Shown one piece after another: positions 8,420 through 32,081 of a stretch of DNA of 32,406 nucleotides (its first letter is position 1; each line of letters opens with the position of its first letter). The notes beneath the pieces were generated by a model that had not been told where the DNA came from, ran no database searches, and saw nothing but the letters and a program-made list of their open reading frames with translations. Where the stretch lies: assembly GCA_026983795.1 (NCBI GenBank), contig JALSTI010000276.1, positions 1-32,406 of the forward strand. Reading direction: 5' to 3'. The stretch comes from Melioribacteraceae bacterium. GTDB taxonomy: Bacteria; Bacteroidota; Ignavibacteria; Ignavibacteriales; Melioribacteraceae. The translations under genes were made by a program, and so were the position numbers.

Positions 8420-8443
8420 TTCGTTTTCCTTTAAGTTTTAATT

Positions 8444-14506: not shown

Positions 14507-15886
14507 CTATCGCGATGATAATCTTCGTTGCCAACCATCATCTCTTAATTCGCCCCGTTTTGTAGAATGCAGCAATTCGTAATCCGCGTAACCGGTTATA
14601 TCACCGAAAACGAAAATAACTCCTCCTTCAATTGAGTTATATTGCCAAATTTCGTAAGGTTTGGAGTTGATTTCATTAGGATATCTATCGACTTGATCGG
14701 GAGGACCGTACATCAAATAAACTCTTCCTCTATCGGTTTTATAACCTTTCTTATTCAGCGCAGAAAAATGGGCATTACAATAGTTTATTCTATCTAAATA
14801 CTCTTTTTTAAATTCATTTCTCGGCGTACTTGGCAAAGGGTCTCTTTTTTTCCAAAACTTATATAAAAATTCCCTTTTTGCCGAAAGTGAGTCTAATTTT
14901 TTGTAACCGTCAATTTCCTTTTTTGAGGCTATATATTTTGATTCGTTAAATAACAAATCGCATTCTTTATCGGTATAAACAGAAAATTCACTTGCCAAAT
15001 ATCCTTTCGAGTTTATAGTATTACGTTCAACATTTTTAACGCCGGGATTGATAAGAAAAAATTTCTTAGACGATATAAATTCTTTTTTCGATAACGTATC
15101 TTTAAGTATCAGGCTAATATTGTAACTATCGGTTGGAAGTTTCTTCAAATTAATTGCGCCAACTTCCACAATCGAATTATATTTAGTACCTATCTTTTTC
15201 ATTTTGGAATAAACAGATTCACCAAGACTGTTATACACAACTTGAGAAAATTCAAGGTTAGGAACTTTGGAATAGTTTTTTAAATTATAGAGTTCGGAAT
15301 AGAAAAATAAAACGGGTGCAACGTTTGAGTAAAGAATAGCCGGATTTGGAATGACTTCAAGACTGTTTTTATAAAACATAGAAGTAGAATCTTTAGAATT
15401 CATTTTAATATTTTGTGCTAACTCAATATTACTAATTGCCATTTCATCGGTTAAATACGGTACAATATTTATATCCTCGGTCTGATTGTATGAATGATCA
15501 TCATTTTGGCTATCTACCGCTACAAGTTTTAATTTATAGGACCCGGCGGGAACCACAAAACCCAAAACGCCCAAAGATAATTTTTTAACATCGTTAGAAT
15601 CTTTAATGGGTTTGTTTAGTACCCATTGTTTGTTAATTACCAGCTCGTCAGTGTCTGTATTTTGAAGCTGAATGCTAAGTTTTGCTTTTACGAATTTAGT
15701 ATTCCCTTCTTCTTGAACGGTTAAATTTTTCAGATTGAACGAGTAATAAATTTCTAAATAATTTGATGTTGAATCATATACGAAGTCGGCGTAATCAAAA
15801 TTAAAATTTAATTTGTTTTGCGCCGCGGTATTGATTACCAAAAGAAAGAATGAAAGTAAAACTTTTTTAATTAAAGACCTTTGCAT
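14507..15886 (-). CDS. GWxTD domain-containing secreted protein
   Basis: 459 residues with a signal peptide (about 1-22, LLSFFLLVINTAAQ). The N-terminal two thirds is beta-rich and not recognisable. The C-terminal region from about 335 carries the GWxTD-type domain: KKRDPLPSTPRNEFKKEYLDRINYCNAHF, then the core motif as GYKTDRGRVYLMYGPPD (381-397), with Tyr in place of the eponymous Trp. Proteins of this family occur in Acidobacteria, Gemmatimonadetes and Ignavibacteria; their function is unknown. It heads the cluster that continues into the lipid A, GT9, M23 and bactofilin genes, which suggests an envelope role (inference). Confidence 0.85.
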   Translation of the reverse strand: MQRSLIKKVLLSFFLLVINTAAQNKLNFNFDYADFVYDSTSNYLEIYYSFNLKNLTVQEEGNTKFVKAKLSIQLQNTDTDELVINKQWVLNKPIKDSNDVKKLSLGVLGFVVPAGSYKLKLVAVDSQNDDHSYNQTEDINIVPYLTDEMAISNIELAQNIKMNSKDSTSMFYKNSLEVIPNPAILYSNVAPVLFFYSELYNLKNYSKVPNLEFSQVVYNSLGESVYSKMKKIGTKYNSIVEVGAINLKKLPTDSYNISLILKDTLSKKEFISSKKFFLINPGVKNVERNTINSKGYLASEFSVYTDKECDLLFNESKYIASKKEIDGYKKLDSLSAKREFLYKFWKKRDPLPSTPRNEFKKEYLDRINYCNAHFSALNKKGYKTDRGRVYLMYGPPDQVDRYPNEINSKPYEIWQYNSIEGGVIFVFGDITGYADYELLHSTKRGELRDDGWQRRLSSR

Positions 15887-17611: not shown

Positions 17612-20600
17612 TTAATGGACAAGGGCAAATTTAAGAATTTTAGTTTTCCCTAATTCAGGCATATCGATGTTTATTATGTATATACCGCTTGCAACTGCTT
17701 TATTATAATCGTTTTTTAAGTCCCATCTTTCAAATTGTCCGCTTGTTTTTTTATGGTGTATTGTTCTTACCAGTACTCCGCTTATATCAAATATTCTGAT
17801 GATTGCTTCCTCTGGTAAATGACTAAAGGTTACATATCCGGAATTTATATTTTCAATATTTGATTCCAATTTGTAATATGGATTTGGAAATACATTAATT
17901 TTTTCCACGTCTTCTTTAGCCAGTTCATTGTTTTTCTTTACTTTAGGAGCCGTAAATTCAAAAACATCGCCGGGCAAATTAATTTTATTAGGTATGAATA
18001 TAATTGAAAATTTGTTTGCTAAATAATTGTTTCCACCCTTTTTGAGCGGCCAAATAAAATACATATTGCCATTTTGGGTTGCATTATTTTTCTGGTTATA
18101 AAACGACGGATTATATAATGTATTGCTTATGAGTATATATTCATTCCCGCCCGAAAAAGGATATTTGCTTCCGTTCCAACCCAAATCCCATTTCAGATTT
18201 GCGTTTCCCTCTATGGAATCCTCAACGAAAGAAACATTTAATTGTACCGGATTTAAGCTGTCGCTTATATCCCATGCGGTAAACGGCATCCAGCCTATTC
18301 CCGAATATTCATAATTCTTATCTTTTCTGTAAACGGCTCCTTGCGACCATCCGTTTTCTTCCGAAGGCACCTCAGAACCACTGCCTCCCGTAAATCTTAA
18401 TTCTACAGGAAGATATTTGTATATCCCCTCATTTCTATTCCAAAATTTATCGCCAATAACTGCTCTACCATATAATTGGTTCCCTCCCCAACCTATTATG
18501 TAAATCCAAGTATCACCTTTAAATTCAAGCTTCTTTATCCCTTTAGGCGGACTTATTACCTTGGGTAAGATTCCCCTGATTACCGGATAATCATTATCAC
18601 CTTTTTGATTTATTTGATTCTCTATTAATATTGTTCCGCTATTTTTTTCCTTTAAATTCCATACTATATTTTTATTGAGTGTATCGAATGTTATCTGATA
18701 TGTTTTCCCGTCGGTTTCTTTCGGGTTTATTACTATTGGGAAAAGTTTACCTTCGCTTTGTCCGGAATGCATGCTCAAAAGTGTATCGCCCAACTCTGCT
18801 CCGTATCTTATTCCCGGCGGTTCAATTTGAGGTATTACCATTTTAATATTAGCGGTAGACTGGATTGAATGGAATAGAAATATGGGTGAAGGATTATAAC
18901 CATACGATACAACGGTAAAATAATATTCTTGTCCGTTTACTAACTTTTTATGTTTTAACGAGTCTCTTGTTACTGTAATGTATCTAACTAATCCGTTATC
19001 TTTTCCGTCTATGCGCAATTCCGGTATTTTTACATAATTAAAATCTCTAATAGTATCATAAATTGCAGTAACACCGTTTACTAAATCGTAATTTCCTATC
19101 TTTACACCTTCTTCCAATCTTGCTGTTTTTGACGGTAATTGATAAATTTCATATCCTTCAAAATTATATCCGTCCATTGAAAAATTTTCCACCCTATTTA
19201 TTCCTTGTTGAGATAATCCCCATTCCAATATTACTTTACTGTCCAAACCGGTCACTTTAAACTCAGGCGGTTGAATTTTGGGAACCCTGAGTTCTCTATT
19301 AAAGAACTTTTGTATTCTTTTTACATTTTGTTTAAGTTCAGTTATACTGTTCAAATATGAGTTCCCTTCTCCTCCTACCAAAGCTATAAAAGTCTCAACC
19401 GTATCATTTAAATTCATTTTAAAAGGACCTGTCATCAAGTATAAAACTCTATCAGATGGTATGTCTATTGTACCGTCAATAATTCCTGTTCCTGTCACAG
19501 GATCACCATAAAGTAAATATGTGCCGAATGGAGTTGTAATACCGTAACTATCAGGGAATTGAGAATCTCTCGGATATCTTGGGGAAGGCAATCTACCTCT
19601 CATAATGCTATAATACTCCAAAGCTCCATTATAGCTAAACTCCGGTGTGACCCATGTATTTCCGGAAGCATCATGTATAAACGAACTCATCGGTTTATGG
19701 TTTACATATTTGTATCCTTTTCTCCATTTGAAATTAATAATCGCGCTATCTTGCGGATTCCCGGTATATTTAGATACCCCGTTAAGAAAAACATAGCCGG
19801 CAGCAGGAGGCGGCATCCCAATAGATGAATAAACTTTATCTTCACTTTCACCGTTGTACGTATATCCCAAATTTAACACCGTATCACATCCGGCTAAATC
19901 ATCACTCCAATTTCCCAGATCAGTATCCGACCATTGGCATATATACATACTATCAATGTAAGAATTAGCCGCCGATTTTGATGTCCCTTTATAAACTATA
20001 TCTACTTTCTTAAATATAGCTTCACCTAATGTGCCTGTATAATTATAACCCCAATATGTTTCCGTAACCTCAAGACCAATTGGTTTTGATTGATACAAAT
20101 TTTCAGAATCCGAATCATCATATTTTATAAATATGGTTTGCGTAGCCCCCGGCACACCGGGAATATCAATCTTTGGCTCATATTTACCGTCATTATTAAC
20201 ATCCATATAAATTGCTCCTTCTTCCGACGGCCATTCATTCCAATCTTTTTCGTATAAATCCCTTAACTTTTTTATGTCTTCTTTACTAACTTTCTCAATT
20301 GGTTTCTTAAAATAATTCGACGCATCCATCTTAAGATTTGCTGTTTTATAATCGCTTCTAACCCTATACAATCTTGTTATTGGTTTACAACCCGAACCGT
20401 ATGTATTACCGTTAACCCTTACTTTTTGATTTTGTCCGTCATAAACAAGTGCGCCCCAAACTATTCCTTCGCTAAATACAACTCCGGCTTTATCTCCATT
20501 TGGGTATGCTCCGTTCCAATGAGAATCAAAGACCCAATTATGAAACCCTTCTGCGCTTACCCAACTTGTAATATTTCCAACATCTATCACACTTTCGTCA

Positions 20601-20734
20601 TAATCATTTTTTTGCAGTTTCAATAAGGATAACTTCTTTTGCTTTAAGTGCGGGAATTGGGCTAATATTGTTGTGTTCAGGATAGCTATTAAAAAGATGA
20701 CTAAAATGCTTGTTTGGGCAATGATTTTTCTCAT
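17612..20734 (-). CDS. T9SS type A sorting-domain surface protein, paralogue 1
   Basis: 1040 residues with a signal peptide (about 1-25, ending ILAQ). Residues about 50-470 form a conserved domain shared with the paralogue at 22141-25476; in one 50-residue block starting NITSWVSAEGFH I count 36 identities. Asp-rich loops that could bind Ca2+ are DVNNDGKYEPKID (178-190) and SDTDLGNWSDD (269-279). Residues about 480-660 look like fibronectin-III-type modules. Residues 944-1040 are a T9SS type A C-terminal sorting domain (EKINVFPNPYY, then VASGIYIINIDM and terminal KTKILKFALVH). It has its own promoter and follows the terminator of the PorV-containing operon. Role unknown; expected at the cell surface. 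No enzyme motif seen. Confidence 0.82.
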   Translation of the reverse strand: MRKIIAQTSILVIFLIAILNTTILAQFPHLKQKKLSLLKLQKNDYDESVIDVGNITSWVSAEGFHNWVFDSHWNGAYPNGDKAGVVFSEGIVWGALVYDGQNQKVRVNGNTYGSGCKPITRLYRVRSDYKTANLKMDASNYFKKPIEKVSKEDIKKLRDLYEKDWNEWPSEEGAIYMDVNNDGKYEPKIDIPGVPGATQTIFIKYDDSDSENLYQSKPIGLEVTETYWGYNYTGTLGEAIFKKVDIVYKGTSKSAANSYIDSMYICQWSDTDLGNWSDDLAGCDTVLNLGYTYNGESEDKVYSSIGMPPPAAGYVFLNGVSKYTGNPQDSAIINFKWRKGYKYVNHKPMSSFIHDASGNTWVTPEFSYNGALEYYSIMRGRLPSPRYPRDSQFPDSYGITTPFGTYLLYGDPVTGTGIIDGTIDIPSDRVLYLMTGPFKMNLNDTVETFIALVGGEGNSYLNSITELKQNVKRIQKFFNRELRVPKIQPPEFKVTGLDSKVILEWGLSQQGINRVENFSMDGYNFEGYEIYQLPSKTARLEEGVKIGNYDLVNGVTAIYDTIRDFNYVKIPELRIDGKDNGLVRYITVTRDSLKHKKLVNGQEYYFTVVSYGYNPSPIFLFHSIQSTANIKMVIPQIEPPGIRYGAELGDTLLSMHSGQSEGKLFPIVINPKETDGKTYQITFDTLNKNIVWNLKEKNSGTILIENQINQKGDNDYPVIRGILPKVISPPKGIKKLEFKGDTWIYIIGWGGNQLYGRAVIGDKFWNRNEGIYKYLPVELRFTGGSGSEVPSEENGWSQGAVYRKDKNYEYSGIGWMPFTAWDISDSLNPVQLNVSFVEDSIEGNANLKWDLGWNGSKYPFSGGNEYILISNTLYNPSFYNQKNNATQNGNMYFIWPLKKGGNNYLANKFSIIFIPNKINLPGDVFEFTAPKVKKNNELAKEDVEKINVFPNPYYKLESNIENINSGYVTFSHLPEEAIIRIFDISGVLVRTIHHKKTSGQFERWDLKNDYNKAVASGIYIINIDMPELGKTKILKFALVH

Positions 20735-20963
20735 TTTTTGCCTCTATGTAATATTATTAATCATCAAAATTACCGGGCAGTATTATATTAATATTAAAGT
20801 CTTTATCAATACTTCATATTTAATACTTTCTAAAATAATAAAATCATTTACTTTTAATTTGTTGTAATTAAATTACCAATATGATTTTTTAAAAAAAAGA
20901 GAGAAAAAAAGTACCTTATCAGTTTAAGATTAGTTATAAAATTAATGTGTAGAACATGATTAA
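20735..20963. other. Intergenic region before T9SS paralogue 1
   Basis: Strongly AT-rich, no gene found. Besides the promoter at 20783-20810 it contains A-rich and T-rich runs around 20890-20911 but no further convincing structure. Confidence 0.5.
20783..20810 (-). promoter_or_regulatory. Sigma70-type promoter of the T9SS paralogue 1 gene
   Basis: On the minus strand TTGATA (complement of 20805-20810) and a perfect TATAAT (complement of 20783-20788) are separated by 16 bases. The predicted start is about 40 bases before the ATG at 20732-20734, which is preceded by AGAGG. Read directly from the sequence; not experimentally supported. Confidence 0.7.
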
Positions 20964-21002
20964 GAAAAAAAAACGGCTTTGCTTAACCAAGCAAAACCGT
21001 TT
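20964..21002 (-). terminator. Rho-independent terminator after the PorV-like gene
   Basis: A 14-bp stem (20971-20984 with 20989-21002) around loop AACC. In the plus-strand sequence one position is a C/A mismatch, but in minus-strand RNA it becomes a G-U pair, so the full stem forms only in the direction that also has the run of about nine U (complement of 20965-20973). It lies 28 bases after the PorV-like stop and separates that operon from the paralogue gene downstream. Confidence 0.9.
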
Positions 21003-21030
21003 ATGAAAAATATCGAAATATTATTGAATC

Positions 21031-22071
21031 TTAGAAACCGATATTTAGCGAGAAAACATGGTTAGATTCAAAATATTTAACAGGTACATAAGCGTAATCT
21101 ACCGATAAATCCAAACCGCTAACTTGATTCAAATTAATTCCGGCACCCAATGTGAAATCTTCAAAAATATTAGGGGAATTATCTGTTGCTTGCGGTGAGA
21201 AAAGATAACCGCCTCTAACATAGAAAGTTTTATCGTACGAATACTCTAATCCGATTTTATAGTCATCATAAGCATAATTATTATTATTATACGATGCCGA
21301 AACGGTAAAATTATTAAGTTCGTCTAATTGACGGGTATAAGACAATCCCAATCCTAATTCAGACGGGAATTGATTTTCAGCGGCTGCAAACTGATAGAAT
21401 GTAGGACCTCTTGAAGAAGAAGTAGCATCAGCTTGAATAAAAGTAGCATTTCCGCCATACTTCATAGAACCGCCTAAGTTCTTAACTGCAATACCTAAAT
21501 CAAGTCCGGGAACACTAAACAAATCCCTGTATTGAACACCGGCGTCAAATGTAAAACCGGAAGCTTCAGCTCTATCGAAACTTTCATTAATGATGTTAAA
21601 GTTAACACCGATAGAGATTCTATCTGTCAATACTTTTGAATAAGTTAATCCCAAAACAAAGAAGCTAGGATTAATTTGTTGACCGGTACCATCCGGTTGA
21701 TCCATAGTTGTAACATTAATTGTTCCGATATCAAGATATCTAAAAGCCAATCCCAAACTGCCGAGATCACCCATTTTGCCACTAACCGCAATAAAACCAA
21801 CATTCATATCGGCAATGTACTTACGATAAGAAAACATAGCACTAGCGCTGGATTGACTAAAATCGACACCTGCGGGATTCCAATAAATTGCTTCGAGACC
21901 AGTTACGCCGGCAATTTGAGATCCTCCCATAGCCAAATACCTTGCTCCAACAGGAATTCTTAATTCCGGGGCAGCTGATGTTCCGGCACGGTTATTACCA
22001 CTACCAAAAGTAACAATAGCGGAGAAGCTCACTATTATCAGCATATAAAATAGTCTATTTAGTTGAGACAT
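21031..22071 (-). CDS. PorV/PorQ-family outer-membrane beta-barrel protein
   Basis: 346 residues from ATG 22069-22071, chosen because GGAGG ends five bases before it; a longer frame starts at a TTG inside the ribosome binding site. A signal peptide (about 1-24) is followed by AAPELRIPVGARYLAMGGS (33-51) and YWNPAG (63-68), the N-terminal signature of PorV/PorQ (FadL-like) proteins. The rest is alternating amphipathic strands with a terminal aromatic (NIGF), as in outer-membrane barrels. In Porphyromonas PorV is the shuttle or attachment partner for T9SS cargo; position directly behind a T9SS cargo gene suggests a dedicated PorV-like partner (inference). Followed by a strong terminator. Confidence 0.85.
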   Translation of the reverse strand: MSQLNRLFYMLIIVSFSAIVTFGSGNNRAGTSAAPELRIPVGARYLAMGGSQIAGVTGLEAIYWNPAGVDFSQSSASAMFSYRKYIADMNVGFIAVSGKMGDLGSLGLAFRYLDIGTINVTTMDQPDGTGQQINPSFFVLGLTYSKVLTDRISIGVNFNIINESFDRAEASGFTFDAGVQYRDLFSVPGLDLGIAVKNLGGSMKYGGNATFIQADATSSSRGPTFYQFAAAENQFPSELGLGLSYTRQLDELNNFTVSASYNNNNYAYDDYKIGLEYSYDKTFYVRGGYLFSPQATDNSPNIFEDFTLGAGINLNQVSGLDLSVDYAYVPVKYFESNHVFSLNIGF

Positions 22072-22076
22072 AATTT

Positions 22077-22081
22077 CCTCC
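22077..22081 (-). promoter_or_regulatory. Ribosome binding site fixing the PorV-like start
   Basis: GGAGG on the minus strand, five bases before ATG 22069-22071. It rules out the in-frame TTG at 22081-22083, which overlaps it. Confidence 0.8.
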
Positions 22082-22102
22082 AATTATTAAATAAAATTTT
22101 AT

Positions 22103-22132
22103 AAGGTGCAAGCGAATATGCGCTCACACCTT
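22103..22132 (-). promoter_or_regulatory. Intercistronic hairpin between T9SS cargo gene and PorV-like gene
   Basis: Arms 22103-22114 and 22121-22132 with a 6-base loop. The two positions that mismatch on the plus strand become G-U pairs in minus-strand RNA, giving a continuous 12-bp stem. No U run follows, so it is more likely a processing, stability or partial-termination element than a full terminator. It lies eight bases after the cargo gene stop and 21 bases before the PorV ribosome binding site. Confidence 0.6.
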
Positions 22133-22140
22133 AAATAAAA

Positions 22141-25100
22141 TTAATATACTTTCAATATTTGTTGTTCTTGAACCACTGCCAACTTAAGAATTTTTGTTTT
22201 CCCAAGTTTCGGCATATCAATATGTACTATATAAATACCACTTGCAACTGGAAGATTACTATCATTTTGTAAGTTCCATCTATCAAATTGTCCGCTCGAT
22301 GATACGTGATGAATAGTTTTAACTAACACACCACTAAGATCGAATATTCTGATAGTTGCCTCGTCAGGTAAATGATTAAAAGTTACATAGTGATTGTCTC
22401 TTGAAGTTTCCCTGTTTTGGAATCCATAATAAGGATTCGGGAATACATTTATTTTTTCCACATCTGCTTTGGCAAGATTAATATCCGAAACATTAGCAGG
22501 GGCTTCTACTTTGAATTTATCTTTCGGAGTATTTGGCTTAGTAGTAGCTATATGGAAAACGGTTCCGACTTCCGGCAACAGAGCGTCAAACGGACCGTCG
22601 GGAACTGTACCGCCATTCCAGTTTACTAATACAACACGCATAAATCCGGGTTCCGAATTATAAGGATCGCCAGGATATTTAAATGCCCAAACAAAATTTC
22701 CGTCGAATCCTGCAGGATCTGCTTGCGCAGCAGCGACTAATTTATTGTATCCGTCTGATCCGGGTGTTCTATCTAACGGCATTATTGTGTAAATACCGTC
22801 TGTATAAGGATCGTTGTCGGCGCTGGAAACACCATGATCGGCGCCTGAATAATCAAATTGTCCGTCTTCGTTAAAATCTAACATTTGAACAAACATCTGG
22901 AAGTCATCCGAAGGATCATTAGGATCGCCAATGTTCCATACCTCAAACGGTAAATGAACAATACCAAGATGAACTGTATCGCCAAATCCTATAAAACCGT
23001 CACTACCGGTAGCAGTGAATCTAATTTCGAAGTCATCCGGTACTAATGCAGCCAAGCCTTGATCCGGTTCGCCCAAACCACCGCTATATTGAGTAATTCG
23101 AGAAACAAAAGTATCATAATCCGGAGCGTCTGCACTTGTGCTATTAATAAACCAGGCAGAACCATTAGTTTGTTGATTTCCTATATTAGTTCTTCCCAAT
23201 CCAGGGAATCCGAAGTAATCAGCTGCCGCGCCTGCCGGTGGATCTAAAGGTCCGTTAGCATTAGCAGTAACTTCAAAATTGGTAAATCCTAATGGAGCGC
23301 CGGATACTAAGAATTGAATACCATCTGCAATAGGAGAAGCGGCATCTGCATCTTGATCAGTTTGATTGGTTAAGACATCTTTTCCGTCTTCACGGGTAAC
23401 TTTCCATGTATTTACTCCGCCAACCGTGTCGAACGAAACTGTATACGACATACCGGTTAATTTACTCGGGTCAACAACAATAGCCGTAACGCTTCCGTCA
23501 CTTGCCCCGGAAAGTCGGGTAACCGCCAAAGTATCACCAAATGATCCGGAATATCTTACTCCAGGGTCTGGCTGCTGAGGAGTTACCTGCAGAGTTACCG
23601 CAGAAGATTTTAATGCATGGAACGGTAAAAGCGGGCTAGGGTTAACAGCATAAGCAATTACCGTAAAGTAATAAGACTGCCCGTCCCTTAATGCGGTTTT
23701 ATTTACAGCATCTTGATCAATTAATAAGAACCGTTTGATTCCGTTATCCTTACCATCAGCAACTAAAACCGGAATATCTACACCGTTTACATCTTTAACC
23801 GTATCATATACAGCCGTTATTCCATCTTTAACATCCCAGGTTCCAAGCAATACACCGTCTTTGGGACTTGCGGAAGGACCGGGTAATTGATATACCATAT
23901 ATCCTTCAAAATTGTAATTTTGATCTGAAAAACTCTCGATTTTATTCACACTCGTTTGATCACTACCCCAGTTAAGAACAATCTTATTATGTAAAGGTGT
24001 TACAGAAACAGCAGGTGGATCTATAGAGGGTAATTTAAATAACTGATCAAAAACTATTTGAGCAGTATTATCATTAGTTTTCATTTGAGTTATACTACTT
24101 AAATTATCGGTACCTAAACCGCCGACCAAAGCCAATACTACTTGCGCGGTATCGCCAATACTCATTGTGATAGGACCGTTTGTTACCATAATTCGTCTGT
24201 CGCCAGGACCATCAACACTACCGTCAATTTTGCCTGTGCCTGCAACCGGGTCACCATCTAACAAATAAGTACCGAAAGAGGTTACATCCGCAACGGATTC
24301 GGGGAACGGAGCTCCCGTAGGATAACGGGGAATAGGTAATTTTCCTCTCATCAAATTATAAAATTCCAATGTACCGGAATAGTCAAACCCCGGGTCGCTC
24401 CAAGTACCACCGGCTGCAAAATATTCAAAAGAGCTCATCGGTTTCGGATTAACATACTTATACCCTTTACGCCATTTTAAGTTAAATATTGCGCTATCTG
24501 CAGGGTTTCCGGTAAATTTTGAAACGCCTTGTAAAAAGTCATAACCCGCAGCAGGAGGAGCTAAGCCTAAACCTTCATAGGTAGCATCCGTAGCTTGCGA
24601 ACTGTATGCATAACCTAAGTTTAATGTTGTATCACAACCTGCAAAGTCATCGGTAGAGTTACCAACATCCGGATCAGCCCATTGTACAATATACATACTG
24701 TCTATTGTAGAATTAGCTGCAGAAGTTGAAGTTCCTTTATAAACTATATCTACCTTTTTATAAATAACATTTCCCAAAGCTCCGGAATAAGCATAAGCCC
24801 AGTAAGTTTCCGTTACTTCAAGTCCAATCGGTGGCGAAGCATAAAGAGATGCCGAAAAAGCATCATCATATTTAATAAAGATAGTTTGCGCAGCGCCGGG
24901 AACTCCGGGAATATCAATATTAGGATCATATTTTCCGTCACCGTCAACATCTTTATACATTGCGCCTTCGTCAGCAGGCCATTCATTCCAGTCTTTAGCA
25001 TACTGATCACGCAGTTGTTGAATGTCACCGTCGGTTACCGCTCCTAATGCTTTTGCAAAGAAGGAAGCAGCGTCCCTGGTTAAATCTCCTGTTTTATAAT

Positions 25101-25476
25101 CCGGTCTTACTCTGTACAAGCGTGTAATTGGTCTACATCCGGTACCGTATGTATTACCGTTAACGCGAATCAGCGGTGAAGAACCATCATTTACTTGACC
25201 TCCCCAAACGATTCCCTCGGAAAATATTGCGCCAGCATTCACCCCATTTGGGAATGCTCCGTTCCATGAAGAAGCAACGACCCAATCATGGAAACCTTCA
25301 GCGCTCACCCAGGAAGTAATGTTGTTTATATCCATTACACTTTGCCCGGGATCGACTGTAATCTTATTTAATTTATTTTTCTTATTTCGTTTACCCTTAT
25401 AACTCGCATACGAATTATACTGGAAACCGAAAAATAAGATTAGAACTATTAAGCTAAAAATATTTAATTTTTTCAT
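22141..25476 (-). CDS. T9SS type A sorting-domain surface protein, paralogue 2 (operon copy)
   Basis: 1111 residues from ATG 25474-25476, preceded by GGAGG nine bases upstream; the longer frame begins with a TTG overlapping that site. Signal peptide about 1-24, then a basic stretch and the NITSWVSAEGFHDWV domain shared with the gene at 17612-20734. Possible Ca2+ loops are DVDGDGKYDPNID and, in a segment the paralogue seems to lack, DFNEDGQFDYSGADHG. Fibronectin-III-like modules occupy the middle. Residues about 1007-1111 are the T9SS type A sorting domain (FPNPYYGF, then VASGIYIVHIDM and KTKILKLAVVQEQQILK). It lies between a TonB-dependent receptor gene (40-base gap) and the PorV-like gene. 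Function unknown; no enzymatic motif recognised. Confidence 0.85.
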   Translation of the reverse strand: MKKLNIFSLIVLILFFGFQYNSYASYKGKRNKKNKLNKITVDPGQSVMDINNITSWVSAEGFHDWVVASSWNGAFPNGVNAGAIFSEGIVWGGQVNDGSSPLIRVNGNTYGTGCRPITRLYRVRPDYKTGDLTRDAASFFAKALGAVTDGDIQQLRDQYAKDWNEWPADEGAMYKDVDGDGKYDPNIDIPGVPGAAQTIFIKYDDAFSASLYASPPIGLEVTETYWAYAYSGALGNVIYKKVDIVYKGTSTSAANSTIDSMYIVQWADPDVGNSTDDFAGCDTTLNLGYAYSSQATDATYEGLGLAPPAAGYDFLQGVSKFTGNPADSAIFNLKWRKGYKYVNPKPMSSFEYFAAGGTWSDPGFDYSGTLEFYNLMRGKLPIPRYPTGAPFPESVADVTSFGTYLLDGDPVAGTGKIDGSVDGPGDRRIMVTNGPITMSIGDTAQVVLALVGGLGTDNLSSITQMKTNDNTAQIVFDQLFKLPSIDPPAVSVTPLHNKIVLNWGSDQTSVNKIESFSDQNYNFEGYMVYQLPGPSASPKDGVLLGTWDVKDGITAVYDTVKDVNGVDIPVLVADGKDNGIKRFLLIDQDAVNKTALRDGQSYYFTVIAYAVNPSPLLPFHALKSSAVTLQVTPQQPDPGVRYSGSFGDTLAVTRLSGASDGSVTAIVVDPSKLTGMSYTVSFDTVGGVNTWKVTREDGKDVLTNQTDQDADAASPIADGIQFLVSGAPLGFTNFEVTANANGPLDPPAGAAADYFGFPGLGRTNIGNQQTNGSAWFINSTSADAPDYDTFVSRITQYSGGLGEPDQGLAALVPDDFEIRFTATGSDGFIGFGDTVHLGIVHLPFEVWNIGDPNDPSDDFQMFVQMLDFNEDGQFDYSGADHGVSSADNDPYTDGIYTIMPLDRTPGSDGYNKLVAAAQADPAGFDGNFVWAFKYPGDPYNSEPGFMRVVLVNWNGGTVPDGPFDALLPEVGTVFHIATTKPNTPKDKFKVEAPANVSDINLAKADVEKINVFPNPYYGFQNRETSRDNHYVTFNHLPDEATIRIFDLSGVLVKTIHHVSSSGQFDRWNLQNDSNLPVASGIYIVHIDMPKLGKTKILKLAVVQEQQILKVY

Positions 25477-25485
25477 ATAACCAAA

Positions 25486-25490
25486 CCTCC
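25486..25490 (-). promoter_or_regulatory. Ribosome binding site fixing the start of T9SS paralogue 2
   Basis: GGAGG on the minus strand, nine bases before ATG 25474-25476. The MKKLNIFSL start gives a clean signal peptide, unlike the upstream TTG frame. Confidence 0.75.
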
Positions 25491-25526
25491 ACAAGTTTAA
25501 AATTCTATGAGGTAATAAAATTTGAC

Positions 25527-28517
25527 TTAAAAATTAATTAAAACACCAGCGCGTATTGTTCTTGGCGCTGAGAATAAGTCATACCCATAAACACTAAATG
25601 CTGCTTCCCTGTTACGCAAATTAATCGCTCTGTATAAATCGGCAAATCGCTCTGTATATCTTGACCCGGCAATAATTTGTTGTCCGTCAGGTGAATTTAA
25701 GAAACCATCGTCATATGCATTACCTGTTTTTTGATATACGTTGATAACATTCATTGTATTAAATACATTTCTTACATATACATAAAAGTTAACGTCGAAA
25801 TCTGCGATAGAAACAGTTTTATCAACTTTAAGATCCAAATTATATTGCCAAGGAGTAGTTGCGCTGTTTACCGGTCCAATCGGTCGTCTGCCTCTTGTAT
25901 CGACAGCAGGAATTAAACCACCCGTCCATGCAGAACTTTGACCTAAACCAAGATTTCTTGCAAAAGTAAATGGATGTCCACTGTTAAATGTAAATAACAG
26001 GTTAACCCCAAGTCTTTCTAACAATGGCCCGCCTTCATCCTTGCCAAATCTATAATCAACACTAATATTACCGCTGTGAGTAAAATTATAAGTCAAAGGT
26101 AATAAAACCGTAGGCACTTGATTGCTAACTTCGGTTGAACCCAAGCCACTGGCAGAAAATGAGTTTGTACCTTCTGCATTTTGATATGTATAGTTAACTT
26201 GGGCAGCTACCCTTGCTACTCTTCTTACTCTTAAGCTAACTTCCACACCTTTTGTTGTTGCAAAGTCTTGGTTAACAAAAGCAGCATATTTACTTCTCGG
26301 TGCGCCAGGTTCGGTTAAAATATTTTTGTATTGTAACTGACCTTTAATATCTTTGTAAAATGCTGTTATATCTAATGCTGCAAAATCAGTGAATTGTTGT
26401 GCAAATCCAATCTCATAAGAAGTTGTTCTTATGGGTTGAGGATCATAAGCAACAGGATCTGTAAATAAGTTTGCCGCGTTCAATATTTCTGTTGCTCTAT
26501 AAATTCCTTTGTAAGCAACATCCAAACTAGGAGATTGAACAAATTGTCCGTATTGTAAATGGAATACCGTTCTATCGGTTACCGGAAAAGAGAATCCGAT
26601 TCTCGGAGAAAGATAACTAAATGTACTTCCACTAACCAATGCGGAATCGGGAATTAAATGAGTGTCATTATCTATTGCAGGCAATTTCGGATTTTTCCAT
26701 GCGAAACTATCCATATCGATAAAATCATATCTTAAACCTAGATTCAAAATCATATCACTTACTTCCAATCTATCTTCTATATAACCTGAAGCTAAGACAG
26801 GATGTTTTGCAGCAAACGGTCCTGAATCCACTTCGTTTCCGAACGGATCATAACCATAATTATTAAATGCCCGGAAAAGTTGATTTCCAATTAGGAATGC
26901 TAGTGAGTCATGATTTGCTGCCAAGTCCGGCGAATTTCTAATCGTACTTAGAACGGAACTCGATCGACCTATTCCTAAACTTCTAACGGTCCATCTTTGA
27001 TAAGATGCGCCTGCTTTCAGAGAATGTTTTCCGAATTGTGCGGTATACGAGAAAGAACCGCCGATGTAGCTGTTTTCGCTCTTATTATATGTAGTAGTCA
27101 ATGTTCCCGGTCTATTAAACGGGAAACCGTAAAAATCGTAACTTGCAGGACCTGTACTGTAATTTTGGTATTGTATTCCAACTTTTGAAGCTTCAAGACT
27201 ATCGGCATAAGCCATATAGTTATCTTTAAAAATAGGATCGTAAGTTTTGCTCCTTCCGTTGAAATAATTAATAATACCGGTAAAATAAGAATTAGGACCG
27301 GTTAAATACGTAGCTTTTAAGTTTAATAACAAATTTGAAAAGTCAGTTTGAGCAATTCGTTCATTGTTAAACAAATTAAAAAGAGTTGGTCCGTTTCTTT
27401 GTCTTCTTTGCCAAGTAAAAGCGCCGGCAAGTCTAACCATTAACGGGTTGCTATTATAAAGGGCTGTACCGTTAAAGGTATACCGGTTTCGCATTCTACC
27501 GTTAATATTACCGTCTTGCCATGTCAAAATTCTGGAATCTTTTTTATTACCGCCATAAAATCCGGTATCAAAAACATGTGTAGTATCCCACAATGCACCG
27601 TCTGAATAAGCGGCCGGATTAGCGAAGAAGAAATGAGGATTAAAATCTCTGGTAAAATTATTTTCACCCGATAAGAACAATTTCAATTTTTTCGTAAACA
27701 AGGGTCCGCTTAGGGTTAATACATAATCGGAATAACCATAAGAATGAGTCCCTAAAAATTTATCACCGGGATAGTTACCGAAATTATCGGTCTCAACCCT
27801 GAGTGAAGCGTGGTATTGGCTGGTACCGGTTTTAAAATCTTGAGAGACTATACCGGCATTTGCATTACCGAACTCAGCGGTATAACCACCGGCTTGAACA
27901 AGAATTTCTTGAAGTGCATCAGGAGTAACGCTAACAAGCGAACCACCGTTTCTGCTTAAGATGTTTTTTACATCAGCGCCTTCAAGTGTATAACCTGTTT
28001 CGTCTGCTCTACTACCACGTATATAAGTAATACCATTCAATTGAACAACACCAGGTTGTAATGCTACAATAGCGTTGATATCACGCGTAGGTAAAGAATT
28101 AATATTTTCCGCGCCAACAATTCTCATAGCGTTGGTAGCGGATTTTTGGATCAATGGTTTTTTTGCAACAATTACAACTTCTTTAGTTGCAATTTCGGTA
28201 GAAGGCAAAGCAAAATTTACCGTTGAGGTTAAGCCGGAAACTACTTTGATGTTGTTATAAACAACATCCTGGTAACCGATGTAAGAAGCGCGGACCGTAT
28301 AAGTACCGGCGGGAACAAGTGTAATCAAGTATTCACCGTTAGCATCGGTTGCTGCGCCAAAATCGGTGCCTTTAACAATAATGTTAGCCCCAATCAGTGC
28401 TTCACCCGTTTGCTTATCAATCACTTTACCGGCAATTCTACCAACACCTGTTTGAGCAAAAGCAAAAGTGAAAGTGATAAGCAACAAAAGTATTGTTGTG
28501 TAAAATGTTCGGAACAT
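25527..28517 (-). CDS. TonB-dependent outer-membrane receptor with N-terminal CarboxypepD_reg-like domain
   Basis: 996 residues from ATG 28515-28517 (GGAGG seven bases upstream; a longer frame to 28556 adds residues unlike a signal peptide). Signal peptide 1-21 (ending FAFAQ). Residues about 25-105 are a carboxypeptidase-regulatory-like beta sandwich (GRIAGKVIDKQTGEALIGANI, then GEYLITLVPAGTYTVRASYIGY). A plug domain spans about 125-232 (LPTRDINAIVALQPGVV, YIRGSRADETGYTLEGADV). The remainder alternates strands and turns as a 22-strand barrel and ends in aromatic AGVLINF. No SusD homologue accompanies it; instead it sits between a DUF4397-like lipoprotein and a T9SS cargo gene. Substrate unknown. 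Confidence 0.9.
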   Translation of the reverse strand: MFRTFYTTILLLLITFTFAFAQTGVGRIAGKVIDKQTGEALIGANIIVKGTDFGAATDANGEYLITLVPAGTYTVRASYIGYQDVVYNNIKVVSGLTSTVNFALPSTEIATKEVVIVAKKPLIQKSATNAMRIVGAENINSLPTRDINAIVALQPGVVQLNGITYIRGSRADETGYTLEGADVKNILSRNGGSLVSVTPDALQEILVQAGGYTAEFGNANAGIVSQDFKTGTSQYHASLRVETDNFGNYPGDKFLGTHSYGYSDYVLTLSGPLFTKKLKLFLSGENNFTRDFNPHFFFANPAAYSDGALWDTTHVFDTGFYGGNKKDSRILTWQDGNINGRMRNRYTFNGTALYNSNPLMVRLAGAFTWQRRQRNGPTLFNLFNNERIAQTDFSNLLLNLKATYLTGPNSYFTGIINYFNGRSKTYDPIFKDNYMAYADSLEASKVGIQYQNYSTGPASYDFYGFPFNRPGTLTTTYNKSENSYIGGSFSYTAQFGKHSLKAGASYQRWTVRSLGIGRSSSVLSTIRNSPDLAANHDSLAFLIGNQLFRAFNNYGYDPFGNEVDSGPFAAKHPVLASGYIEDRLEVSDMILNLGLRYDFIDMDSFAWKNPKLPAIDNDTHLIPDSALVSGSTFSYLSPRIGFSFPVTDRTVFHLQYGQFVQSPSLDVAYKGIYRATEILNAANLFTDPVAYDPQPIRTTSYEIGFAQQFTDFAALDITAFYKDIKGQLQYKNILTEPGAPRSKYAAFVNQDFATTKGVEVSLRVRRVARVAAQVNYTYQNAEGTNSFSASGLGSTEVSNQVPTVLLPLTYNFTHSGNISVDYRFGKDEGGPLLERLGVNLLFTFNSGHPFTFARNLGLGQSSAWTGGLIPAVDTRGRRPIGPVNSATTPWQYNLDLKVDKTVSIADFDVNFYVYVRNVFNTMNVINVYQKTGNAYDDGFLNSPDGQQIIAGSRYTERFADLYRAINLRNREAAFSVYGYDLFSAPRTIRAGVLINF

Positions 28518-28524
28518 AATTTTT

Positions 28525-28529
28525 CCTCC
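28525..28529 (-). promoter_or_regulatory. Ribosome binding site fixing the TonB-dependent receptor start
   Basis: GGAGG on the minus strand, seven bases before ATG 28515-28517; it places the start after, not inside, the upstream lipoprotein gene. Confidence 0.8.
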
Positions 28530-28548
28530 AATATGTTTAAACTTTTTT

Positions 28549-29265
28549 CTAATCATCTAAGAAGATATTGCCTTTTAGATTGTTTGTTGAGTCATAAGCA
28601 ACTGCTGTATAACGGTTTTGTGATCCTAACTTGGCCGGGAATGAAGTATAAGTCGAATCACCTATCATAAGACCAATTGTATAATCGGCAGCTTTTAATT
28701 GAATACCGCCCATTCCCTTACCAGGAGCCACGCTCGAAGCAAAGGTGATTGTTGTGTCTATACCATTCGCCGTTGCATGCAAACCATCAATAGATGCATC
28801 AAACGAACCGTTAATAAAGGCAACTACCGCAGAATCTTTGGGATAGAGGTCTTCATTATTGGGTGAATTTTTAGTTTGGAAAATATATCTTTCCGTTAAT
28901 TTAACCACATGTCTTTCACTACTGGTAGCTCCCATTACAAATAACCTGATTTTCCGGTCGGTTTCAGTAGTTACTTTATAAGATTCGGAATTAAACATTA
29001 AAGTTTTTGAACCTGCAGGGATATCCTTAAATCCTCCCTGACTTTCAGCTCCGAAGGCAACAGTACCGAATGATGTTTTATCGCCGGATTTGTTAATCAA
29101 GTCGATAGTAGCCGATTGACCGGCTAAATTGACAACTTTAACCTGACTTCGGAAATTAAAACTATCCGGAATCGGGTTAACGCTAGTATCAACACATCCA
29201 ACCAAGAACAGTACTATGCTGAAGCTTAGAATGAGTAGAATTTGTATTTTGCTTTTTTCTAGCAT
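28549..29265 (-). CDS. DUF4397-like lipoprotein
   Basis: 238 residues. The N-terminal hydrophobic helix ends in a lipobox LVGC, with Cys24 as the acylation site. Two beta-sandwich-like repeats follow: VKVVNLAGQSATIDLINKSGD with a later IPAGSKTLMF, and VAFINGSFDASIDGLHATANG with a later LKAADYTIGLMIG; this is the pattern of DUF4397 domains, whose function is unknown. AGGAGGT lies five bases before the ATG. It is the first gene of the probable operon with the TonB-dependent receptor (31-base gap to the preferred receptor start). It is expected to be anchored in the outer membrane; whether it faces outwards cannot be told. Confidence 0.7.
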   Translation of the reverse strand: MLEKSKIQILLILSFSIVLFLVGCVDTSVNPIPDSFNFRSQVKVVNLAGQSATIDLINKSGDKTSFGTVAFGAESQGGFKDIPAGSKTLMFNSESYKVTTETDRKIRLFVMGATSSERHVVKLTERYIFQTKNSPNNEDLYPKDSAVVAFINGSFDASIDGLHATANGIDTTITFASSVAPGKGMGGIQLKAADYTIGLMIGDSTYTSFPAKLGSQNRYTAVAYDSTNNLKGNIFLDD

Positions 29266-29662: not shown

Positions 29663-29986
29663 TTATTCCACAATTTTATTAATTTTATCTACAAACATTG
29701 CTTTTGGTACAGCTCCGATAACAACATCTTTAACTTCACCATTTTTAAACATTAAAACCGTAGGAATGCTGCGGACGCCGTATTTAATAGCTGTTTGTTG
29801 ATTATTATCTACATCCAATTTACCGACTTTCAGCTTGCCCTGATATTCTTCTGCAAGTTCTTCCATTATTGGCGCAATTAAACGGCACGGGCTGCACCAT
29901 TCCGCCCAAAAATCTATAATAACCGGAACATCCGATTTCAACACTTCGTTTTCAAAAGAATCGTCTGTAATTGTAATTGGTTTCAT
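29663..29986 (-). CDS. trxA: Thioredoxin with CSPC active site
   Basis: 107 residues, the normal size of thioredoxin, which reduces protein disulfides in the cytoplasm. The active site is WCSPC (Cys31, Cys34), a variant of the usual WCGPC. Other hallmarks are PVIIDFWAEW before it, KLDVDNNQQTAIKYGVRSIPTVLMF with the cis-proline, and a terminal helix. No signal peptide. TAGGAG precedes the ATG. It lies 30 bases after the acyl-CoA dehydrogenase gene and is probably the last gene of that operon. Confidence 0.93.
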   Translation of the reverse strand: MKPITITDDSFENEVLKSDVPVIIDFWAEWCSPCRLIAPIMEELAEEYQGKLKVGKLDVDNNQQTAIKYGVRSIPTVLMFKNGEVKDVVIGAVPKAMFVDKINKIVE

Positions 29987-30016
29987 ATTAATTTTTACTC
30001 CTAATCGAATTATAAT

Positions 30017-31159
30017 TTATATTTTACCGTTTTTTTTCAACACGTGATGAGCAATAATTGTTTTTTGTATTTCGTTTGTCCCCTCGAAAATTCTATTTAT
30101 TCGGGAATCCCGGTAGTATCTTTCGATAGGGAATTCTTTTGAATATCCCATTCCCCCATGAATTTGTACGGCATAATCTGCTATTTTATCCAACGATTCA
30201 GAACAATAAAGTTTTACCATAGCGGTTTGGGTAGATATTTTTTTCTTCAAATCGTAATCAACCGCCGTTCTATAAACCATCGATTCCATATTGTAAATCA
30301 TTGTTGCCATTTCTGCCAGCATAAACTGCACGGCTTGAAAATGACTTATTGATTGGTCGAATTGCTCTCTTTCTTTGGCATAATGTGTTGACATTTCCAG
30401 CAATTCTTTAGCGGCGCCAAGACAAGCGGCGCCAAGACCAAGTCTGCCGGCATCCAAAGTTTTCATTGCTATTAAAAAACCCCGTCCGTCTTTACCCATT
30501 AAATTTTCTTTAGGTACTTTTACGTTTTCGAGAGAAATGGCATTAGTTTTACTTCCTTTAATTCCCATTTTCTTTTCGGCGGGACCCGGATTAAAACCAT
30601 CCGTATCGGTTTCCACAATAAAAGCGGAAATTCCCATTTTAGTCCTCGCAAAAAGTGAAGCAACATCAGCAATACCCCCGTTGGTAATCCATAGTTTTTC
30701 ACCGTTTATCACCCAATGATCGCCTTCCAATTCCGCATGTGTTTTTAAATTGAAAGAGTCCGAACCGGCTCGAGCTTCAGTTAAACAAAAAGCAGCTATT
30801 TTTTCACCTTTTGCAAGCGGTACTAAATATTTCTTTTTCTGCTCTTCGTTACCGCCCAAATAAATTGCATTTGAACCGATTGACTGATGGGCGCCGATAA
30901 ATGTTGCGGTAGACATGCAGCCGCGGGCTATTTCCTCTTGCGTAATACAATAACCAACTTCGCCAAAGCCGCCGCCGCCGTATTCTTCGGGAAAGGCTAC
31001 GCCCAGAATTCCGAGCTCGCCGAGTTGTTTTATTAAGCTATCGGGAATTTCCTCGTTTTTATCAATATCTGCCGCTATAGGTTTTATTTCGTTATTTGTA
31101 AAATCCCGAACCATTTCGCGCAACATTTGCTGCTCTTCTGTAAAATTAAATTCAAACAT
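30017..31159 (-). CDS. Acyl-CoA dehydrogenase (short/medium-chain type)
   Basis: 380 residues, an FAD enzyme that introduces the alpha-beta double bond in acyl-CoA and passes electrons to ETF. Family landmarks in order: FTEEQQMLREMVRDFTNNEI near the start, AFCLTEARAGSD and WITNGG for FAD and substrate binding, the REQFDQSISHFQAVQFMLAEM helix, QIHGGMGYSKEFPIERYYRD, and the catalytic base Glu359 in RIFEGTNEIQ. Length and base position are those of butyryl-CoA dehydrogenase-like enzymes, but chain-length preference or a branched-chain substrate cannot be decided. It lies 34 bases after the enoyl reductase-like gene. No clear Shine-Dalgarno sequence. Confidence 0.93.
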   Translation of the reverse strand: MFEFNFTEEQQMLREMVRDFTNNEIKPIAADIDKNEEIPDSLIKQLGELGILGVAFPEEYGGGGFGEVGYCITQEEIARGCMSTATFIGAHQSIGSNAIYLGGNEEQKKKYLVPLAKGEKIAAFCLTEARAGSDSFNLKTHAELEGDHWVINGEKLWITNGGIADVASLFARTKMGISAFIVETDTDGFNPGPAEKKMGIKGSKTNAISLENVKVPKENLMGKDGRGFLIAMKTLDAGRLGLGAACLGAAKELLEMSTHYAKEREQFDQSISHFQAVQFMLAEMATMIYNMESMVYRTAVDYDLKKKISTQTAMVKLYCSESLDKIADYAVQIHGGMGYSKEFPIERYYRDSRINRIFEGTNEIQKTIIAHHVLKKNGKI

Positions 31160-31193
31160 TTTAAATTTTAAAATTGTTAGAGAATCAGTTTAT

Positions 31194-32018
31194 TTATTTT
31201 AACGGAATCGAAACAGGGTCTCCGATATAATTAACATTGTATTCGCCTCCGTCAACACCAATCACATTTCCGGAAATCCAGTCTGCTTTTTCATCGCACA
31301 GAAGCACAATAGCTTTTGCCACGTCTTCAGGAGTAGTTAATCTGCCTCTCGGGTTTTTCATTTGAGCGGCTTTTTTCATTTGATCGTTTCCGGGAATTTT
31401 ACGCAGCGCGGGAGTATCTGTAACTCCGGCCATAATTGCATTGGCAGTAATTTTCATATATCCCAATTCCACGGATAGTTGTCTAATATGCGCTTCCAAA
31501 GCAGCTTTTGCAGCAGAAACAGCTCCGTAATAAGGAATAACTTGATGCGAACCTGCGCTTGTAAGCGCAAAAATTCTTCCGCCCGGAGCAAAAAGATCCC
31601 GCAATATAAGTCCTTGTGTCCAATATACAAGTGCATGCGCCATAACGTCCAAAGTCATTTGCATTTGTGCGCGGGTAATAGATTCGTTTGGCGTTTTCGA
31701 TACAATAGGTTTTAAAGTACCAAAAGCGAGGGAATGAATTAAAACATGAACATGGGGATGCTCTTTAGTAGCAAATCTTTCTTTAATTTCGTCAAGAACA
31801 TCGTCCCTTTTAATCGGATCGGCAGCATTGATATTAAAGAAAACCGCTTTACTTCCATATTTTTGAATTTTATTAATTATTGTTTTTACTTTCGGCATTG
31901 TACTTTGACGGTCGAGATGAATTCCGAAAATGTTGTAACCTTCTTTGGCAAGTGCCACCGCAGAAGCGCCTCCGAATCCACTGGAAGCTCCTAAAATAAG
32001 TGCCCATTTTTTAACCAT
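31194..32018 (-). CDS. FabL-type enoyl-[acyl-carrier-protein] reductase (SDR family)
   Basis: 274 residues from the ATG at 32016-32018, chosen for the GAAGGA upstream and for the normal MVKKWALILGAS start; a longer frame to 32045 exists. The Rossmann motif GASSGFGG is at 10-17. Catalytic Tyr164 and Lys171 are spaced as YX6K (YGAVSAAK), the spacing of FabI/FabL enoyl-ACP reductases, not the YX3K of ordinary short-chain reductases; SKAALEAHIRQLSVEL-type continuation and a VDGG near the end resemble Bacillus FabL. It probably reduces enoyl-ACP in fatty acid synthesis. Another SDR reaction is possible. It heads the operon with acyl-CoA dehydrogenase and trxA. Confidence 0.7.
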   Translation of the reverse strand: MVKKWALILGASSGFGGASAVALAKEGYNIFGIHLDRQSTMPKVKTIINKIQKYGSKAVFFNINAADPIKRDDVLDEIKERFATKEHPHVHVLIHSLAFGTLKPIVSKTPNESITRAQMQMTLDVMAHALVYWTQGLILRDLFAPGGRIFALTSAGSHQVIPYYGAVSAAKAALEAHIRQLSVELGYMKITANAIMAGVTDTPALRKIPGNDQMKKAAQMKNPRGRLTTPEDVAKAIVLLCDEKADWISGNVIGVDGGEYNVNYIGDPVSIPLK

Positions 32019-32030
32019 AATTTTTCCTTC

Positions 32031-32081
32031 GTTTGTAAAAAGCAAAGGGTAATTTATAAAATAAGAGAAACTATTACAAAC
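32031..32081. promoter_or_regulatory. Inverted repeat flanking a weak promoter before the FabL-like gene
   Basis: GTTTGTAA (32031-32038) and TTACAAAC (32074-32081) are perfect 8-bp inverted arms 35 bases apart. Between and overlapping them a minus-strand TTGTTT (complement of 32078-32083) and an AT-rich TTATAA (32054-32059) stand 18 bases apart and could be promoter elements. Weak evidence only. Confidence 0.25.

Follow-up and report, generated by a model that had tools for sequence, protein, structure and literature searches.

The DNA analysed here, hereafter the window, is a stretch of 32,406 nucleotides from a Melioribacteraceae bacterium (contig JALSTI010000276.1). On its minus strand it carries a gene for a TonB-dependent receptor, followed by the genes for a cargo protein of the type IX secretion system (T9SS) and for an outer-membrane barrel of the PorV/PorQ family. 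This receptor–cargo–barrel triad is a conserved system of multiple paralogous copies, found also outside the class to which the window genome belongs. Furthermore, the C-terminal sorting domain of the cargo changes its type with adjacency to the barrel gene, and the triad as a conserved unit with a matching domain type is well supported by the sequences compared below. The parts belong to known families; the barrel-linked type of sorting domain and the link to a receptor are new.

In the window four minus-strand genes stand in a row, for a lipoprotein, the receptor, the cargo and the barrel, with intergenic gaps of 31, 50 and 69 bases if the starts at 28517, 25476 and 22071 are taken. The receptor (P0002; 25527–28517, 1,000 residues) matches the profiles of an N-terminal carboxypeptidase-regulatory-like domain (CarbopepD_reg_2, E = 9e-22) and of the plug (25.0 bits, cut-off 23.9), and fails the SusC/RagA model (TIGR04056; 70 bits against a cut-off of 368.25). 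The cargo (P0003, here cargo 1; 22141–25476, 1,110 residues) consists of a signal peptide, an N-domain, an Fn3-like region, a variable region and a special C-terminal domain, the signal peptide and the Fn3-like region having been assigned by eye. The barrel (P0004; 21031–22071, 350 residues) is a member of the PorV/PorQ family (NF033709; 178.6 bits, cut-off 90), and PorV (6h3i, E = 4.9e-12) was matched in the PDB. It is neither PorV itself (NF033710; 97.3 bits against 250), nor PorQ (NF033711; 90.7 against 220), nor PorV2 (NF052325; 68.1 against 325). A second cargo (P0005, cargo 2) is 46% identical to cargo 1. The coordinates, profiles and identity thus agree with a preliminary description of the window, which had listed the four genes, their 31–69-base gaps, the PorV/PorQ barrel and the cargo paralogue. 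Its remark that the receptor has no SusD partner also holds, no SusD family being found among the matches of the neighbouring proteins P0001, P0003–P0006 and P0010.

To describe the distribution of the triad, 60 loci (L051–L110) were fetched within the order by their likeness to the cargo, the first 40 being mostly the best matches and the last 20 chosen for other architectures. Receptor, cargo and barrel lie on one strand with short gaps in 52 of them; two of the others are cut by contig ends (L051 and L086), and six hold cargo paralogues without the triad, some as tandem arrays. A wider set of 122 distinct barrels was assembled from the neighbourhoods of 60 family matches, the first 60 loci and the window. 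Of these, 83 stand in a full triad, 13 accompany a long gene, no receptor having been detected, 5 directly follow a receptor, 6 follow another barrel and 15 are placed otherwise. In four complete genomes (G069, G080, G083 and G082) a receptor plug was found 1.5–8.5 kb upstream of 33 of the 51 barrel genes, on the same strand, and 33 of the 83 plugs above cut-off are so placed, counts that omit barrels below the family cut-off and three sub-cut-off plugs (one in G082, two in G080). The linkage is present there in 5, 9, 9 and 10 copies.

The PorV family gave 15–21 matches at E 1e-3 in each of nine genomes searched, 8–15 of them above the family cut-off, and SprA is present in all nine, including the window genome (G000). 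The SusD family, by comparison, is nearly absent: PF07980 has one match in three of the nine genomes and none in six, and the SusD-related PF14322 one match in a single genome. The window genome has its only PF07980 match on another contig (C53, 5004–5264), with a plug at 8380–8784; the two appear to make up the sole ordinary SusCD pair of this genome. In GTDB the class Ignavibacteria is placed in the phylum Bacteroidota. Across 148 genomes of this phylum, with at most 13 candidates scored per genome, PorV/PorQ family members above cut-off were present in 117, and families outside the class (f13, f15, f20, f23, f25 and f31, among others) have 8–14 PorV-family matches among the matches listed. 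The triad was identified in four genomes outside the class (G118, G143, G173 and G216) and in a genome from another order of the same class (G168); in G166 it is absent at both additional members of the family, PorQ and PorV2. Cargo matches in 116 of 116 genomes include those to the sorting domain alone, and eight of ten named loci with a cargo relative bear the names Ignavibacteria, Ignavibacteriales, Ignavibacterium or Ignavibacteriota. The link of receptor, cargo and PorV-like protein proposed in the preliminary description therefore stands as a conserved gene unit with a matching C-terminal domain type; it is not one operon but a multi-copy system, broader than that description had allowed.

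The sorting domain of cargo 1 (22144–22491) is assigned to the barrel-linked type by profiles and by models trained in this analysis. It passes the T9SS type A model (TIGR04183) with 26.7 bits at a cut-off of 23, and the domain of cargo 2 falls just below with 21.6 bits. Cargo 1 also matches the model of PorZ (NF052228) with 41.5 bits over residues 1003–1109, the cut-off for the whole protein being 260, and PorZ is the only PDB match of its sorting domain up to E = 1 (E = 0.11). No type B cargo or PorP/SprF family matched P0003 or P0004 up to E = 1. In G069, where 20 of 27 domains were scanned (the omitted ones being two linked domains, beside PorQ in L126 and in the double unit L130, and five ordinary-ended ones), all nine barrel-operon domains (seven adjacent, two displaced) stay below the type A cut-off; PorZ is listed for eight and is the top match of six, always weakly (15–30 bits). 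All ten ordinary domains pass the type A cut-off (36–54 bits), and two list PorZ. The barrel-linked domain thus leans weakly, on these profile scores, towards that of PorZ. The two types also differ in their last residues. Cargos without a barrel mostly have the usual ending ...KKMxLLK, and barrel-adjacent cargos end in ...GKFAIIK and similar, the subfamily of the window in ...KILKLAVVQEQQILKVY and its sister group in ...MPQKQIQRF. Sequence comparison places a ten-residue extension, VQEQQILKVY (22144–22173), past the usual end of the sorting domain of cargo 1; the consensus of this tail in the subfamily is QEQQxLKxY, and cargo 2 is without it. A motif search returned 56 occurrences of the QEQQ-type tail, 54 directly before a barrel gene, one right behind a barrel gene and one at a contig end.

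In order to relate domain type to gene position, two models, which define the special (linked) type, were trained on loci of the order with 77 linked and 74 unlinked domains before removal of duplicates. They were then applied outside the order with six-frame detection of barrels, domains unseen by both models at E 1e-3 being uncounted. There the linked type was found in 25 of 26 barrel-adjacent domains (one of the 26, L205, is from a different order of the class, the remaining 25 from beyond the class) and in 4 of 22 others (Fisher p 1.7e-8). Of these others, 18 lie on the same strand but further upstream and include all 4; none of the 3 behind a barrel is of the linked type, nor is the single one lacking a barrel. 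The sole adjacent miss (L204) belongs to a double-barrel unit. The four linked-type exceptions (L179, L190, L193 and L200) lie 6.8–7.3 kb before barrels that directly follow receptors on the same strand, and therefore look like displaced cargos of those operons; all four begin at the edge of the fetched stretch. Inside the order, where the figures are in-sample, the special type was assigned to 86 of 96 adjacent domains, 8 of 37 upstream, 4 of 32 behind a barrel and 8 of 46 without one. Six of the ten adjacent misses lie beside a true PorV and are labelled PorU by their position and length, three are in double-barrel units and one is beside PorQ.

The same dependence is seen among proteins sharing the N-domain. 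All those before a barrel (95 of 95), further upstream (5 of 5) or behind one (4 of 4) have the special end, whereas among the 19 whose fetched stretch shows no barrel, 11 have the ordinary end, so that in these sequences the C-terminal end is tied more closely to the barrel than to the passenger. The preliminary description had named a cargo domain scattered in genomes away from receptor or PorV genes as a finding that would speak against it; the 11 barrel-less proteins show this in part, and the ordinary C-terminal domain of all 11 supports the cargo–barrel link. The other eight keep the special type, one at a contig end, two in L103 and five in L107. Both latter loci hold tandem arrays of cargo paralogues. 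The five copies of L107, of ∼720–745 residues, have IIPEKIIPDWY or a near variant as their ending and linked-type sorting domains, with no barrel in the fetched stretch. Conversely, the N-domain is present in 95 of the 120 barrel-adjacent proteins of at least 500 residues. Among the 24 without any N-domain match, six are PorU-like, five belong to double-barrel units, one has 565 and one 951 residues, and eleven are cargos of 617–896 residues.

The barrels of the triads may form a group distinct from those already named. Beside its triads G069 has a true PorV (L119, 265.5 bits), a PorQ (L126, 268.8 bits) and a PorV2-like protein. In a tree of 75 barrels, a single branch sets off 49 receptor-operon barrels, P0004 being of this group, and none of 500 shuffles was as clustered; L144 is the one among the 49 for which no receptor was detected. 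Distances between paralogous triads of the same genome were compared in the three genomes that have seven or eight of them, whereas G000, G082 and G011, with three or four, were omitted. Sorting-domain distances correlate with barrel distances (rho 0.81, 0.85 and 0.88; n = 8, 7 and 8; p 0.005 or less), as do receptor distances with barrel distances (rho 0.76–0.90); the corresponding values for cargo body and sorting domain are 0.45–0.70.

We propose that the unit encodes a two-part outer-membrane uptake complex. The cargo would be exported by Sec and then by the SprA translocon, after which its special C-terminal domain would be taken up by the neighbouring barrel instead of by the general PorV. 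The barrel would keep the domain uncleaved, so that the cargo stays on the surface in the manner of PorZ on PorQ, and the cargo N-domain, beside or over the receptor, would serve as a ligand-capturing partner in a SusD-like role. Precedents for retention are PorU and PorZ, T9SS proteins that keep their C-terminal domains and are held by PorV and PorQ in the accounts consulted (PMC5562754, PMC11285876, PMC10202324); cognate PorV-like barrels have been proposed to shield sorting domains from cleavage (PMC10202324), and two type B cargos are reported to require the barrel encoded alongside (PMC12618676). From these precedents together with the adjacency counts we infer that each barrel would bind the domain of its cargo and leave it uncleaved, and that the cargo would form a complex with the receptor; uptake and a carbohydrate-like ligand are further suppositions. 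That a barrel accepts and retains the cargo encoded beside it appears fairly likely to us; for the whole proposal, in which the retained cargo serves the receptor by analogy with SusD and SusC, we consider the chances evenly balanced. Where the preliminary description had a PorV-like export partner, the barrel probably serves just as much to anchor and retain the cargo as to export it.

The model of the N-domain, residues 45–495 of P0003 (24010–25362; pLDDT 84.4, pTM 0.88), has the predicted fold which we take to be the super-beta-sandwich, and its closest solved structures are domains of enzymes presumably belonging to GH116, GH15 and GH94. The best Foldseek match has E = 4.2e-6, and the comparison with TxGH116 (VIA) gave Z 17.2 over 262 aligned residues (root-mean-square deviation 4.0, 9% identity). 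The N-domain is therefore predicted to share this fold with sugar enzymes. No Pfam catalytic domain was matched behind the N-domain up to E = 1. The full-length model of cargo 1 (pLDDT 64.5) shows mostly strands and no helical barrel in that part, which is partly of low confidence, residues 705–953 in the numbering of the model being poorly modelled and left uninterpreted; a search of the cargo 1 sequence in the PDB gave nothing useful, with a single match at E = 0.46. The possible calcium loops of the preliminary description survive as a conserved sequence motif, D182-x-D/N-x-D/N-G, whose D182 does not vary among 14 sequences. That the ligand is a sugar is a guess.

Several points weigh against the proposed uptake complex. 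It draws throughout on gene, sequence and predicted-fold data. The super-beta-sandwich fold occurs weakly also in YidC (E = 0.19 among the matches of the N-domain), so that a carbohydrate-like ligand is not implied by it. The rate of 52 in 60 loci is biased by their selection for cargo likeness, and the complete-genome counts are the better measure. The likeness to PorZ is weak, at 15–30 bits in G069 and 41.5 for P0003 under a cut-off of 260. Within the order, where the special type is scored in-sample, 10 of 96 adjacent domains are not of this type and 20 of 115 non-adjacent ones are; the seven special-type domains without a barrel in L107 and L103 make the adjacency less than absolute. The branch separating the receptor-operon barrels is weak (SH-aLRT 50), the correlation of cargo body and sorting domain is not significant in G080 (rho 0.45, p 0.096), and co-duplication of operons would by itself yield correlated trees.

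Of the other explanations the strongest, although unlikely in our judgement, is that the barrel is a dedicated shuttle only, which takes the cargo from SprA and passes it to PorU for cleavage and then release or linkage to lipopolysaccharide, the receptor being co-regulated and having its own substrate. PorV itself is described as acting in this manner (PMC5562754), and cognate shuttles adjoining the cargo gene are reported as proven for two type B cargos (PMC12618676), but the sorting domain leans to that of PorZ, which stays uncleaved according to PMC11285876; moreover, a receptor is present in 83 of the 96 cases of a barrel with a long gene, and the receptor tree tracks the barrel tree. Less probable still is a structural, adhesive or sensor assembly, in which the cargo would be an adhesin or surface-layer protein and the receptor would plug, anchor or signal. 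The great length of the cargos and their Fn3-like regions would suit this explanation, and family matches leave the substrate of the receptor and the ligand of the N-domain unassigned; however, the receptor has a SusC-like plug and a regulatory-like N-terminal domain, and SusD, the usual partner of such receptors, is nearly absent. Finally, although genes of an operon need not interact and 8 of the 19 barrel-less N-domain proteins are still of the special type, an expression cassette for surface proteins that act alone, with the sorting-domain type as a lineage mark of the protein family, is the least probable explanation, since the linkage is kept outside the class and in 5, 9, 9 and 10 copies in the complete genomes, and proteins that share the N-domain can carry the ordinary end where there is no barrel.

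The remaining features of the window are less closely tied to the triad. The small lipoprotein (28549–29265, minus strand) has a lipobox, LVGC, read by eye, and a sub-threshold match to DUF4397 (23.6 against 30.6 bits). A relative of it stands before the receptor in 15 of the 60 fetched loci, and the lipoprotein, counted in the preliminary description as a member of the unit, was for this reason dropped from the core and is regarded as optional. A hairpin terminator follows the barrel gene, with a 14-pair stem at 21002–20971 on the minus strand and then TTTTTTCTTA. The stem, called strong in the preliminary description, has the most pairs of the nine hits of the scan, and the scan as a whole gave fewer hits than chance (13.8 expected from shuffles). 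Cargo 2 (17612–20734, minus strand), a paralogue without the C-terminal extension, begins 296 bases past the barrel gene, and the region's best promoter-like match (11/12, at 20809–20782) sits 48 bases before it. Cargo 2 is therefore probably its own transcription unit; promoter-like matches overall are at chance level (71 against 66.5 expected). An Rfam scan of the window at gathering scores gave no match, and in viral contigs no stretch fitted the patterns searched for.

Judged from gene sizes, the triad in many loci of the order is flanked on one side by thioredoxin, acyl-CoA dehydrogenase and short-chain reductase genes, and on the other by a gene for a GWxTD-domain protein (TIGR04514) followed by apparent ATP synthase genes. 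The GWxTD-domain gene of the window scores 112 bits, and the flank positions concerned are 14507–15886 and 29663–32045. These flanks seem to be a housekeeping-like, fixed place.

Variants of the unit were also encountered. In the double units (L130, L157, L165, L143 and L204) two PorV-family genes follow a protein of ∼525–550 residues with a sorting-type end, and no receptor was detected in these five; both barrels of L130 are below the PorV, PorQ and PorV2 cut-offs. In L177, L187, L169 and L171 a second, longer PorV-family gene (∼465–505 residues) lies behind the first one of the triad. In L120, L134, L148 and L161, as in L179, L190, L193 and L200, the barrel gene directly follows the receptor gene, and the likely cargo, ending in GKFLVIK or similar, is several genes upstream. 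In L202 two cargo–barrel pairs follow each other and agree in their cargo ends and barrel lengths; part of the unit was probably duplicated in tandem not long ago. In G069 the gene that follows the true PorV (L119:12851–13180) is not a PorZ, as might be supposed; it ends as an M6-like inactivated metalloprotease (NF052323), and genes of similar size were seen behind PorV in other genomes examined.

The pattern suggests for other lineages that many members of the PorV family each serve particular cargos, have a domain type of their own and are tied to TonB-dependent receptors, and that the standard type A model can miss barrel-linked domains, as it did for all nine scanned in G069. If true, the proposed uptake complex joins T9SS sorting with SusCD-type uptake and might explain the near absence of SusD from the nine genomes searched. 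It also offers a concrete test of the suggestion that cognate PorV-like barrels protect sorting domains, made in PMC10202324. More tentatively, and as something we would not yet call likely, a part of the Bacteroidota outside the well-studied groups may have SusCD-like receptors whose T9SS-exported partner is permanently held by its own PorV-family barrel reading a private form of the type A domain, which in the subfamily of the window bears the QEQQxLKxY tail; PorZ with PorQ of the classical T9SS would in that case represent a single special case within a large family of surface proteins held by barrels.

Among known systems, PorV recognises every type A sorting domain according to a 2025 paper (PMC12618676), and in the solved translocon such a domain is gripped by loops of PorV (PMC10994853). 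In the Bacteroidota BAM complex a FadL-type barrel, BamG, holds a surface lipoprotein; the two papers mention PorV, and the triad unit is not described in the portions of these BAM-complex accounts available to us (PMC12611786, PMC12578637). Titles and abstract openings, covering few subscription journals and no preprints, contained nothing on PorV-family barrels tied to TonB receptors.

The closest parallels are PorZ–PorQ and PorU–PorV, where the retained C-terminal domain of a T9SS-exported protein is held by a PorV-family barrel, as proposed for the triad, PorZ being also the best, if weak, NCBIfam match of the sorting domain here. These pairs are described without a receptor, whereas the present unit includes one, has many paralogous copies and carries a passenger other than PorZ, and P0004 lies far under the cut-offs of PorV, PorQ and PorV2. 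Type B cargos with PorP/SprF resemble the triad in having their own barrel gene directly behind the cargo gene and in the cargo-specific recognition proposed for it, but the triad has a type A-like domain, a PorV-family barrel and a receptor in front. Receptors with a non-SusD surface subunit are known from BtuB–BtuG and other receptor–lipoprotein complexes, where, unlike in the triad, the partner is a lipoprotein and no T9SS cargo is involved. With SusC–SusD the triad has in common that its TonB-dependent receptor bears an extra N-terminal domain and that the gene beside it encodes a surface partner, here a putative one; it differs in that SusD is absent, the partner is a T9SS protein rather than a lipoprotein, and a barrel gene follows.

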